This document shows positions 23,256 through 44,957 of a DNA stretch of 64,000 bases, one piece after another. Origin of the DNA: Pontibacillus chungwhensis (GTDB taxonomy: Bacteria; Bacillota; Bacilli; Bacillales; BH030062). The notes beneath the pieces were generated by a model. The model was not told where the DNA came from, ran no database searches, and saw nothing but the letters and a program-made list of their open reading frames with translations. The position numbers were made by a program, and so were the translations under genes. Location of the stretch: positions 3,472,001 through 3,536,000 of the forward strand of contig NZ_CP126446.1 of NCBI RefSeq assembly GCF_030166655.1, read 5' to 3'. The stretch's first letter is position 1, and the number at the start of each line of letters is the position of its first letter.

Positions 23256-23379
23256 GAAGCTGGACACTAGAAATGCGCAGGCGGGTTAAAAACATTAGAG
23301 GAAGTTCGATTAAATTCGCCACGTCCTGTGACAACCTCGAACGCTCCCACCTCGTGTTCGGCCCCCCATTCACGAAAAA

Positions 23380-39405: not shown

Positions 39406-39768
39406 TTATACTTTTCGATCCACAAGAAAGCCTAGAAATTCCGCCATAGATGCATAAATATCTAACAGCTTCTTAGGAGGAATTTCCTTTATTACTTCAT
39501 CTGTCTCAGGGTTCACTAACGTTACGTAATATTCTTCTAATTTATCATGAAATTCAAATTTAAGTTCGGTTTGCGCAGGCTCCAAAAATTCATTCATACT
39601 CTGAACAATTTCTTTAGCCTCTTCTTTGTCTAATAGTTTCTCTGTTTCCTGATAGGGAACGCTTGATTTTTTGTCCTCAACCAAACCCTCTGACGATGTT
39701 GTATTCACATTGATGCGCTCAGCCCGTTGCAGAAGTAGGGAATCATGTACAATGTTACCCACTTTCAC
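39406..39768 (-). CDS. flaG: FlaG family protein (YvyC)
   Basis: Start taken at GTG 39768 because AAGGAG lies 10 nt upstream; the longer reading has no site. The 120-residue protein has a variable N-terminus and the FlaG domain (LKFEFHDKLEEYYVTLVNPE, VIKEIPPKKLLDIYASMAEF). FlaG affects filament length. It heads the flaG-fliD-fliS-fliT run, separated from hag by the homing endonuclease gene. Confidence 0.88.
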   Translation of the reverse strand: MKVGNIVHDSLLLQRAERINVNTTSSEGLVEDKKSSVPYQETEKLLDKEEAKEIVQSMNEFLEPAQTELKFEFHDKLEEYYVTLVNPETDEVIKEIPPKKLLDIYASMAEFLGFLVDRKV

Positions 39769-39935
39769 TGTCAGCCAGCTCCTTTTCACATCTTTATATT
39801 TTATATCGGTTTGATCTGTCAAAAGTTAAATAAATAGGTTTTATAATTAAAAGAATAAAGGATCAAAATGAGGTTGATAGAGGGTATAGTAGAATAAGGA
39901 TTTAAGAACCATATGTTAAAAGTGAGGTGAATGTA

Positions 39936-40880
39936 TTGACACTATATGTTCATTACAATGAACAATTTTTAGAGTTTATAACTGGGAAGCTCTTAGGAGA
40001 TGGAAACATCGTAATACAAGATCAAAGAACACCCCGTTTTCGCTTCGCTCACACTATGGCTGATCGTGAATGGGCTGTAAAAGGATATCAAATGCTCCAA
40101 CAAACTATTGAAACGCCTCCACCTGTTTTCAGACAACTATATGATAAAAGAACGAACAAGTATTATAGACAATACTACGTGCAATCATAATCTTCTGAAG
40201 GGATGAACGATTTAAAAGATCTATGGTATCAAGATTATAAAAAGGTTGTTCCTATACAATTTGTGAAACGCTACATTTCACCATTTTGCTTAGCGACATG
40301 GTACCAGGATGATGGGCATTTAAAAAAACGTAAAAACACTCCTCAAAAGCTGATCTTATCCACAGATTGTTTCTCCAGAAGAGATGTTGAACAGTTACAA
40401 AAGTTATTAAAAGAAACCTACTCTCTAAACTTTCACCAAGATGGACAAAATCGTTTACTCTTATATGACCAGCCCTCTATTTATTATTTCCTAACAATTA
40501 TAAGACCCTACTTAACCTCTTGTATGAGAAGAAAAGATATATTTTTGAAGGCTGTTGAAACTAATAAAACAAAATCCCTTAGAACTACGATTTACCTTCC
40601 TGAGACATTCATCTTAACGAAACCTACTTCAGAACTCAGAGATTTATTGCACAGTTTAAAGGAGATTAATAGATCCTTAAGCAATTCTTCTTTTTATCAA
40701 AAGGCATATACCTTGTTACAAAATGCAAAATATGAATCTAGCTCAGATCAAAAGAGTTACCAAGTAACCCTTACAGGCTGCATCGTGAAGGAATTAAAAG
40801 CGTTCAAACGAAAGACAGGACGCCAATATGGTGAAGCGGTCCACCTTTGTAAATTAAACAAAAATGGTCGCCTCATATGA
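39936..40880 (+). pseudogene. LAGLIDADG homing endonuclease, free-standing, with in-frame TAA
   Basis: One frame from TTG 39936 (GAGGTG upstream) to TGA 40880 encodes a two-motif LAGLIDADG enzyme of the PF03161 type: motif 1 FITGKLLGDGNIVIQ near residue 15 and motif 2 SPFCLATWYQDDGHLK, with KKVVP between and IIRPYLTSCM after. TAA at 40188-40190 (codon 85) splits it; both parts stay in the same frame, so it is a nonsense change, not a frameshift. A restart at ATG 40203 (GAAGG upstream) could make the second part alone. The C-terminal ~110 residues are not recognised. It is antisense to the flagellar genes and lies outside the hag intron. Confidence 0.85.
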
Positions 40881-40890
40881 GGCGACCATT
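40863..40890. terminator. Bidirectional terminator shared by hag and the endonuclease gene
   Basis: Perfect palindrome with 14-bp arms AATGGTCGCCTCAT/ATGAGGCGACCATT, A-rich on one side and T-rich on the other. The endonuclease stop codon lies inside it; the hag stop is 10 nt away. Confidence 0.9.
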
Positions 40891-40900
40891 TCTTTTAAAA

Positions 40901-42623
40901 TTAACGTAATAGTTGAAGTACTCCTTGAGGCTGTTGGTTTGCTTTTGCAAGCATCGCTTGAGAAGCCTGAGCCAGAATACTTTCTTTTGTTTGGTTCATC
41001 ATTTCTTTGGCCATCGTGCCACAATCACTCTCATGATTGACCAGACTATATCTTCACCCTCTATTGTACTAGTAGGGGTCGGGCACTTCGGAAGATGTTA
41101 ACCTCCCTACGGATTTCATCACCTGAAACGGTGGTTTATCCTAGTCGTTGAACCTTCTCCATCCTTTCGGAACAGGAGCTTGGCTGCTGATTGCCCAATC
41201 CTTTTATTTCTCCACGTTCACGTTTGCCGTTTCCAGCTCCGTTGTCGCATAAAAGGCTCTAAGGGGTTTCCAGCAATTCACCCGATTGTAATCCTAACCG
41301 TTACCCGTTAGGACGACTGTGCTCCATAGCTGCTTATGCAACCGAAGCATAATCTACGTCGCGGATTCGAGATTCCGCTGCTGTTAAGTTTTCAGAAGAT
41401 GTACCTAAATTGTTAATCGTATGTTCTAGACGGTTTTGATTTGCACCTAGTTTTGCACGTTCTTCTGAAACACTTTTAATAGCATTGTCAATTGTAGTAA
41501 TTGCAGACTCTGCTCCTGATTGTGTAGAAATATCTACTCCATTAATTCCTAAAGCTTCTGATCTCATATCACCTATTGTCATTGAGGTGGTTTGGTTCTC
41601 GTTAGCACCAATTTGGAATCGAATACCATCACCAGAAACCTCTATGTCTGTATCACCACTGTTATTAGTTAATGTGTTATCAACCGATAATTCTAATCCA
41701 CCGATTTTCACTTTACCGTCAGTAGTAACTTCATCCGTTAGAGTGGCAACTGTATTTGAGTTGCTGTCGGCTAATGCATAAGTAGCAGTTTCACCCACTG
41801 TAAAACTAGCTGTTCCATTGGAGGAAATTGCTGTATTATCTATTGTCAATTCATCGCTACCTACACTAAAAGTGGTATTGCCAGATGATGTATTAATATT
41901 ATCAGCCGCACTCCCTACAAGTGCACCTGTAGAATCTAATAGAGAAACTTTTTTCGTTCCTGGACTTGATCCGTCTTCAACCTTCAGTGAATAAGCGTCA
42001 CCAATATTGAAGTCACCATTAGTTGTAGTTGATAAACTAACCTTAGTTGAATTGTCAAGCCCCGTACCACCATCATTAATATCAGTTGCTACTTCATCAG
42101 CTGATGTTATAGTTAATGAATAAGTATCCTCTACCATAAATTCCTTCACTTTTACACCCTGGATATTTGCAGTCCCAGGTGTAGATAATTCTGAGGATTG
42201 GTTTTGCTCACCATTCAATAAGCTCTTAGTATTAAATTCGGTAGTATTACCAATTCGGTCAATCTCAGATTGTAATTGCTCCACTTCCGCTTGTAATGAT
42301 TCACGATCATCATCAGTTTGCGTTCCGTTAGAAGCCTGTGCAGACAATTCACGCATACGTTGTAAAATACTGTGAGTTTCATTTAATGCACCTTCTGCAG
42401 TTTGAATCATAGAGATAGCATCTTGTGAGTTTCTATTAGCTTGATCTAATCCACGAATTTGACCTCTCATTTTCTCAGAAATTGCTAGTCCGGCAGCGTC
42501 GTCTCCAGCCTTGTTAATACGTAGACCTGAAGATAGTTTCTCCATAGAAGCAGCTGAACCATTATTTGCACTGTTTAACTGACGATAAGTATTCAACGCC
42601 GCAATATTATGATTAATTCTCAT
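40901..42623 (-). CDS. hag: Flagellin Hag, split by a group I intron
   Basis: Exon 1 (42623-41352, 424 codons) has the flagellin N-domain (MRINHNIAALNTYRQLNSAN), a variable Thr/Ser/Asp-rich centre and the C-domain up to ESRIRDVD. Exon 2 (41014-40901) encodes MAKEMMNQTKESILAQASQA and ends GVLQLLR, the canonical C-terminus. Joining them restores DVD-MAKEMM in frame and gives 461 residues. Without splicing, translation adds YASVA and stops at 41334, losing the terminal D0 helix that binds FliS and is needed for filament assembly. AGGAGG precedes the start; a SigD promoter and CsrA hairpin lie upstream. Confidence 0.93.
41015..41351 (-). ncRNA. Group I self-splicing intron in hag
   Basis: 337 nt. 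The exon before it ends in U and the intron ends in G, the group I rule. Core elements in order on the transcript: P AATTGCTGGAAA (41267-41278), Q AATCAGCAGCCAAGC (41178-41192), R GTTCAACGACTAGG (41140-41153), S AAGATATAGTCTGG (41041-41054). P7 pairing is visible (ACTA with TAGT). A tentative P1 pairs exon CGUAG(A)U with GCUAUG, giving U-G at the splice site with one bulged A. No ORF inside. Splicing has not been shown here. Confidence 0.92.
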
Positions 42624-44072: not shown

Positions 44073-44957
44073 TTATCTTAGAAAATCCATTAATGTCGGC
44101 TGAATAATACGCGCCCCTACACTAAGTGCCGCTCGGTGCACACTTTCCTGGGTCTTTAATTTTGTAATGACTTTTTCTAACTCTGCATCTTCATTATCAG
44201 AAAGAATTCGATTAGCCATAACTTCTTGGCTTGAAAGGCGATCTTCTACAAGCTCTACTCGGTTCATACGTGCCCCGAGGTCTGCCCTGGTATTCACCAC
44301 ATCATTAATATTACGATCTATTGCAGCAATAGATTCCTCAAGGCCTTCTCCTGAGCTTAAGTTATCAATAAACTGATCAACATTTGCGAAAAGATCCTTC
44401 CCGAAAACCTTATTGCCGTCTACGTTAACATTTAATTTGGTTCCAGCTGAAACTTCCATGTTAACAAACTCTTGGTTAAAGTTCTTACTCAAACTTCCGT
44501 CCCCCACATTAACGGTTACAGGAGGCTCAGACGTGTTGGTTCCATTAAAGATATACTTGTTATTTACTTTCGTATTTGCAAGGTCTTTTAAATGAGCCTT
44601 AAGTTGCTTTACTTCTTCAGCTATATTCTCACGTTGCCCGGTCTCGTAAGTATCATTACTAGCCTGAACCGCTAGCTCCCGCAATCGTTGCAACGCTTTC
44701 GTTGTCTTATCAAGAGCCGCATCCGAGTTATTCATCCAATTATGAACTTCACCAATATTACGCTGAAACTGCTCAATTTCTGTTAACTGGCTCCGATAGT
44801 TCATACCTTTCATAGCGACAACAGGATCATCGGAAGGTCGGCTGATCTTCTTCCCAGTAGAAAGTTGCTCCTGATACTTACCCATTTGCTCATAGCTCTT
44901 ACTCATATTACTCAGCATATTATTCGTTAACATGCTCTGCGTTACACGAATAGCCAT
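44073..44957 (-). CDS. flgL: Flagellar hook-associated protein 3 FlgL
   Basis: The 294-residue flagellin-like protein has N- and C-terminal D0/D1 helices (MAIRVTQSMLTNNMLSNM; YEQMGKYQEQLSTGKKISRP; ALSVGARIIQPTLMDFLR). FlgL is the hook-filament junction protein next to FlgK. It begins 11 nt after flgK. Confidence 0.95.
   Translation of the reverse strand: MAIRVTQSMLTNNMLSNMSKSYEQMGKYQEQLSTGKKISRPSDDPVVAMKGMNYRSQLTEIEQFQRNIGEVHNWMNNSDAALDKTTKALQRLRELAVQASNDTYETGQRENIAEEVKQLKAHLKDLANTKVNNKYIFNGTNTSEPPVTVNVGDGSLSKNFNQEFVNMEVSAGTKLNVNVDGNKVFGKDLFANVDQFIDNLSSGEGLEESIAAIDRNINDVVNTRADLGARMNRVELVEDRLSSQEVMANRILSDNEDAELEKVITKLKTQESVHRAALSVGARIIQPTLMDFLR

Follow-up and report, generated by a model that had tools for sequence, protein, structure and literature searches.

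The reading frame of the flagellin gene hag at this locus stops early, and the missing C-terminus is encoded farther along the same strand. What lies between the two parts, and how did it come to be there? We analyzed a window of 64,000 nucleotides of Pontibacillus chungwhensis DNA, to which all coordinates given for this gene and its neighbors refer. The unspliced hag ORF (41334-42623, minus strand, 429 aa) runs through ...AESRIRDVD into five intron codons, YASVA, and then meets a stop; an earlier note on this DNA had described the frame as ending early at 41334 after ESRIRDVD, and both the ORF and its translation bore this out. Exon 1 (41352..42623, minus strand) has 424 codons, ends in ...SRIRDVD with GAU as the final codon, and holds Flagellin_N together with positions 1-52 of the 86 in Flagellin_C (Pfam). 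Exon 2 (40901..41014, minus strand) supplies 37 codons and a stop and encodes MAKEMM...VLQLLR. Excision of the 337 nt in between (41015..41351, minus strand) joined GAT to ATG and gave on translation a single 461-aa frame ending in ...VLQLLR, the in-frame flagellin that the note had expected from exact removal. A cmscan of the window, which the note had proposed as a check, placed RF00028 (Intron_gpI) at 41022-41337 on the minus strand over the full model (1-253) with 87.1 bits and an E-value of 7.6e-21, well above the gathering score of 50 bits. The core elements P, Q, R and S, an exon ending in U and an intron ending in G were likewise found as described.

Over the 4.17-Mb genome no match to RF00028 was reported besides the window intron, and blastn with the 337-nt intron against the same genome returned the self-match and no second copy. 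The earlier note had also raised the question of an intact hag elsewhere. No separate intact hag was found in the genome by a Flagellin_N search, whose sole other match was a FlgL-like protein of 294 aa (44073-44957), so nothing turned up that might take the place of the split gene. By these sequence comparisons 41015-41351 was confirmed as a group I intron interrupting the only hag detected in the genome. It is a fresh member of an already published group, the flagellin group I introns. Since the unspliced product lacks the last 37 residues of flagellin, motility in this strain very probably depends on splicing.

We compared 135 distinct sequences of the intron with its 12-nt flanks at this insertion site (site A), the window's included, which represent 134 distinct introns. 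The finder demanded an intron start of TATG, the P7 strand GATATAGTC, an intron end of CACG or CGCG and an exon start of ATGGC, and therefore missed variants outside these motifs; it also had a maximum length, beyond which introns would be missed, and the lengths recovered were 336-372 nt. Exon GAU was paired with intron GUC, with a U.G at the 5' cut, in all 135 sequences, which fixes the splice boundary. T or C was allowed as the exon end, while the intron-final G was forced by CACG/CGCG and was not free to vary. In the window the internal guide sequence GUC lies at 41315..41317 on the minus strand (intron positions 35-37) and pairs with the exon GAU at 41352-41354. P3, P4 and P7 were paired in 135/135 at each tested pair, as was P9 (135), and P2 and P6 were each paired in 134-135 of 135. 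The 5' strand of P7 in the window, GACUA (41142..41146, minus strand), pairs with UAGUC (41044..41048, minus strand), which is element S by both the covariance match and the 135-sequence comparison. Changes on both sides that preserved pairing were found in P1, P2, P3, P6 and P9; P4 and P7 are almost invariant and so gave no covariation information. The fit was weaker in P5 (100, 135 and 130 of 135 for its pairs) and variable in P8, which ranged from 104/130 up to 135/135 and had one mismatch column at 0/135, and P1 contained one A-C column that paired in 0/135. The final exon base was T in 126/126 occupied site-A alleles, and in the 21 empty alleles, which have the same protein motif, it was T in 11 and C in 10.

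These comparisons bear on whether the intron splices poorly, which would leave hag in effect disrupted and the strain non-motile. Flagellin introns of thermophiles reportedly splice in a temperature-dependent manner (statements in PMC4853749), but in the window copy pairing is kept throughout the core helices and at the splice-site U.G, except for one P1 and one P8 mismatch common to nearly all 135 sequences, and exon 2, in which decay would otherwise be expected, is intact. We regard poor splicing as quite improbable.

Directly beyond the hag stop, between hag and flaG (39406..39822, minus strand; Pfam FlaG), the next gene of the flagellar cluster, lies a free-standing LAGLIDADG_2 endonuclease gene convergent to hag. 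It falls into two pieces. The first (39927..40190, plus strand) carries the motif GKLLGDG, ends in an in-frame TAA and matched positions 2-62 of the PF03161 profile with an E-value of 2.1e-4 and 21.7 bits, which taken alone is under the curated cut-off of 25. The second, I-SceI-like piece (40203..40880, plus strand) carries WYQDDG and matched profile positions 77-148 (E = 2.2e-16) and I-SceI itself (PDB 3oor, E = 1e-12). Treated as one place (39927-40880) with one TAA inside, the two scored 94.5 bits against PF03161 (E = 1.6e-26). The reading frame is not intact: alignment with open relatives placed the TAA between the half-domains, with both catalytic motifs, GKLLGDG and WYQDDG, kept, and judged from this the window's enzyme gene is probably dead. 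A terminator-like hairpin seen by eye at 40866..40887, between the convergent genes and on neither strand in particular, holds the last endonuclease codons in its stem.

This neighbor, which the earlier note had overlooked, is likely the key to the spread of the intron, broken as it is. Our preferred reading, to which we give a probability of roughly 0.8, is collaborative homing, in which the hag intron would have been spread by the adjacent I-SceI-like endonuclease and splicing would persist although the window copy of the enzyme gene has probably decayed. In the message, guanosine would attack after GAU, the exons would join as GAU-AUG and the intron would leave the hag mRNA, so that full-length flagellin would be made from the spliced message only. 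At the DNA level the enzyme, encoded just beyond hag on the opposite strand, would cleave unoccupied hag alleles at the conserved RDVD-MAKEMM; with the occupied allele as repair template, the intron, exon 2 and the endonuclease gene would then be copied in together. Because of the stop between the half-domains, which would have cost the enzyme its activity, the unit in the window is probably immobile and vertically inherited, and splicing would have to persist.

Blastn with the window intron gave a match in 164 of 397 genomes of the order (E 0.001), an upper figure for site A since the matches include introns of a second hag site (site B, described below) and perhaps group I introns of other genes. 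The exact intron-exon 2 junction pattern occurred in at least 118 stretches of the named GTDB set, and the genera among the matches listed were Halobacillus, Planococcus, Psychrobacillus, Oceanobacillus, Neobacillus, Rossellomorea, Sporosarcina, Anoxybacillus and others. The earlier note had associated flagellin introns with thermophilic Bacillaceae; such cases are in print, but the introns are not limited to thermophiles, as Halobacillus, Planococcus, Psychrobacillus and Oceanobacillus illustrate. The exon after the junction began with MA, as flagellin exon 2 does, in all 80 loci listed. In one locus (L219) exon 2 was cut off by the locus end. Exon 2 behind the site-A intron stopped after 7 residues in L151 (4013) and after 3 in L168 (7863), and these hag copies look broken. 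The site-A 3' junction pattern had no match in viral contigs. In arrays of two or three hag copies (L081, L074, L087, L069 and L082) the copies carried the site-A intron, except for the empty third hag of L082.

A profile search with PF03161 was positive in 49 of the 397 genomes; a pattern scan of genome contigs for relatives of the second piece had yielded 57 stretches, of which 0 were confirmed. By eye from the two match lists, an intron match was present in 45 of the 49 endonuclease genomes and in 119 of the 348 without (Fisher p = 3.8e-15; the Fisher tests, like the shuffle test below, take related sequences as independent). Within the window's family, PF03161 was found in the window genome alone among 9 genomes. 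Its genus, with 8 genomes, had the intron in 3 (G000, G003 and G007); the hag sites seen in G001, G002, G004, G005 and G006 were uninterrupted, and G001 gave a weak blastn match to the intron. In G003 and G007 flaG directly follows hag with no endonuclease insert, and the intron is kept. No endonuclease remnant was seen between hag and flaG in these two genomes (best tblastn E 0.15), and a search for repeats downstream of hag there gave nothing of use. In G003 (L114), which has no endonuclease gene, one hag holds the site-A intron, whereas site A of a second hag is unoccupied and near consensus.

This distribution bears on a possible maturase role, in which the free-standing LAGLIDADG protein would help the intron to splice, as some LAGLIDADG proteins do. 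There is a bacterial precedent, a LAGLIDADG maturase of a Thermotoga group I intron mentioned in PMC3984707, but 119 of the 164 intron-matching genomes lack a PF03161 match, the intron is retained without the gene in G003 and G007, and the gene is broken in the window. We rejected the maturase as the main explanation because of the genome counts and the broken gene, and consider it very improbable. The same data touch the suggestion in the earlier note that splicing is a control point. A regulatory motility switch would be compatible with collaborative homing, and both the 37 residues lost from the unspliced message and the temperature dependence reported for thermophile introns (statements in PMC4853749) would suit it; however, the window held no Rfam aptamer at or above its gathering score, and neither the patchy presence in the genus nor the signs of a mobile element are what a conserved switch would lead one to expect. 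We think a regulatory switch unlikely.

Collaborative homing also has to be weighed against a spliced intron beside an endonuclease gene of no relation to it, a free-standing element for which the hag 3' end would be no more than a common insertion hot spot and which would not cut the intron site. The position of the window gene beyond the hag stop, rather than within hag, would suit such a hot spot, as would one copy (G383) about 10 kb from hag. We examined 50 endonuclease places, comprising all PF03161 places with split matches merged and the window's included. A hag C-terminus was present in 44 of the 50 stretches (about 4 kb on either side where the contig allows), and the nearest listed hag was convergent with the endonuclease gene in 43 of the 44. 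The exception, L084 (G283), is unique among the 44 in having the endonuclease gene and the nearest hag on the same strand. A tree of 46 frames of at least 150 aa (L104, L108, L109 and L111, being shorter, were omitted) contained clade 2 with 17 rows (support 99/99), clade 1 with 25 rows including the window's second piece (support 90/92, below the tree tool's own mark) and four outliers with no hag nearby.

The two clades differed in the intron site occupied next to them. With clade 1, site A was occupied in 23/25 and site B in 6/25; with clade 2, site B was occupied in 17/17 and site A in 6/17 (Fisher, clade versus site: 1.5e-4 for A and 4.8e-7 for B; for L069 and L097 the sites were labeled by eye). 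The two clade 1 exceptions are L078, a stretch without hag, and L082, in which the nearest hag is empty and two more hags of the array are occupied. In the named set, where all loci have site A by construction and a stretch may end before a neighbor, site B was present in 9/9 loci with clade 2, 5/21 with clade 1 and 17/50 with no endonuclease seen; after removal of near-copies of tree rows the figures were 6/6, 3/15 and 17/50. Such crosswise specificity gives the strongest reason to assign each enzyme to an intron site of its own instead of to a common hot spot: each clade is tied to its own site and far less to the other, and with the intron match in nearly all endonuclease genomes it makes an unrelated element unlikely.

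At the level of sequence the match of clade to site is strong, with exceptions in G383, G334, G226 and G341. Uninterrupted hag genes were searched for in 46 endonuclease genomes, all of the 49 but G037, G072 and G232. An uninterrupted hag and an open clade 1 gene occurred in the same genome in G334 and G226, where the sites have diverged, and in G383, where the site is near consensus; G341 has a short clade 1 frame (165 aa) and three uninterrupted hag-like genes, of which one site was examined. We had considered strict self-protection, by which an open enzyme gene would mean that every hag site is filled. This fails for G383, whose empty site is close to the consensus; a genome can thus carry an enzyme gene and still have unfilled hag sites. 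The open clade 1 gene of that genome (L078, 3950-4927) lies near fliD/fliS-like ORFs recognized by eye, and it is this copy that is some 10 kb from the uninterrupted hag. Broken endonuclease genes adjoin empty sites in G191 and G108, which fits decay, although the cases are too few.

As evidence on mobility, intron and hag distances were compared at 33 loci with both parts (35 of the 40 listed loci gave an intron). The closest cross-family introns differed by 4-6%, and these pairs were 20-29% apart in their N-terminal hag DNA; the cross-family means over all pairs were 14% for the intron and 29% for hag. Intron and hag distances were correlated at 0.26 over 528 pairs. The nearest neighbor lay in the same family for 16/27 introns and 7/27 hag sequences, and the figure for the introns implies that transfer is not unlimited. 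Synonymous diversity near the site was 0.187 in occupied alleles versus 0.402 in empty ones, of which there were 21 only, and farther from the site it was 0.396 versus 0.450; the near-site difference was reached by 1 of 500 label shuffles. The low near-site diversity fits a recognition footprint or co-conversion, though its source could instead be the exon needs of the ribozyme rather than recognition by an endonuclease. Of 9 pairs of endonuclease genes, 6 gave dN/dS values of 0.10-0.35, with a high dS in some of them, and the other 3 were saturated.

Site B, the place of a second group I intron, lies near the hag 3' end, after GCN in ...AMLA-Q.... With a finder that demanded neither codon copy we collected 79 distinct introns, which are also distinct over a shorter stretch; this supersedes an earlier count of 55, which demanded both codon copies and was hence biased. 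The exon ended in T in 79/79 and the guide sequence was GGCGTC in 76/79, so that exon GCU can pair with GGC as GAU does with GUC at site A. An alternative 5' splice site at the LQLL codons, noted by eye, was dropped because of this pairing. In 77 of the 79 (L071, L086 and L088 are examples) the intron opens with a spare set of C-terminus codons and a stop, most commonly QSNQMPQGVLQLLR, and the codons behind the intron encode QANQQPQGVLQLLR or similar in 77/79, the other two lying near the locus end. The two introns without a spare copy, L011 659 (G352) and L105 3180 (G040), perhaps represent the ancestral state or a secondary loss.

The last residue was identical between the spare and the later copy in 72/75. 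Diversity at codon positions 1, 2 and 3 was 0.20, 0.07 and 0.42 in the spare, 0.13, 0.05 and 0.40 in the later copy, and 0.15, 0.06 and 0.47 in 79 genes without a site-B intron, a pattern by which both copies look translated. Unspliced site-B mRNA should accordingly still encode a whole flagellin, as spliced mRNA should. The same residue was specified by different codons in 475 of 873 comparisons between the copies, and the second residue was Ser in 65/75 spares versus 3/79 native genes. We infer that the spare was recoded so that the enzyme no longer recognizes it. Site-B introns thereby suggest a route for an intron to be harmless, spliced or not.

Taken together, we lean, somewhat beyond even odds, toward a broader version of collaborative homing in bacterial chromosomes. 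Two related hag introns in the Bacillus order would each be moved by its own free-standing LAGLIDADG clade parked beyond the gene, and at site B the recoded spare would give two C-terminal isoforms and, through changes next to the cut that are mostly Ala to Ser, would protect the occupied allele from the enzyme. If this is true, a mobile pairing described from phages also works in bacterial chromosomes, with the flagellar filament gene as its target. Given two sites with two matched clades in many culturable species, specificity and the origin of mobile introns would be directly testable, as would the decay of the homing cycle, in which the intron outlasts the enzyme, the situation of the window and its genus. 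For annotation, split hag genes with a site-A junction of the GAT-ATG type are better read as probably spliced than as pseudogenes.

Among the matches listed from the open-access literature, titles and the starts of abstracts held no pairing of a flagellin intron with a LAGLIDADG or I-SceI-like gene, and such absence is not proof that it is unpublished; the word intron is absent from the available part of PMC5109656. Bacterial group I introns coupled to a second function are represented by IStrons and by the c-di-GMP riboswitch-ribozyme of C. difficile (passages in PMC3984707; IStron survey PMC4227781). We rejected an IStron, as the intron is 337 nt long and the scanned neighbors are hag, the LAGLIDADG gene and flaG, with no transposase. 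We also rejected a c-di-GMP riboswitch-ribozyme, as only RF00028 and RF01690 reach their gathering scores in the window. The latter, Bacillaceae-1 RNA, lies at 23294-23360 on the plus strand, where its 41.9 bits exceed the gathering score of 35.

Likenesses are also found in three other known systems. I-SceI (PDB 3oor, 1r7m) is a homologous two-motif LAGLIDADG protein, which the protein of L080 matched with an E-value of 2.2e-16; for the one clade 2 protein compared, that of L092, the PDB search was negative at E 0.01. The PDB entries give I-SceI as intron-encoded, whereas the hag-adjacent genes are free-standing. Group I introns with temperature-dependent splicing are described in flagellin genes of thermophilic Bacillus in passages of PMC3984707 and PMC4853749, which cite Hayakawa and Ishizuka 2009 and 2012 for Geobacillus stearothermophilus and thermophilic Bacillus. 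These are alike in being group I introns in the flagellin gene of related bacteria, but here one site is occupied across many non-thermophilic genera, part of them with a matched neighboring endonuclease gene. Collaborative homing is described for phages, in the relevant passages of PMC10448857 and PMC3984707, as an endonuclease gene beside an ORF-less intron, with cleavage at the intron insertion site as the defining step. At hag, too, the endonuclease gene is adjacent to but outside an ORF-less intron. In contrast to the phage cases, the hag systems, known from their sequences, sit in bacterial chromosomes, with an I-SceI-like gene convergent to its target gene and two clades for two sites, and this architecture, with a matched enzyme clade for each of the two sites, appears to be a new form of collaborative homing.
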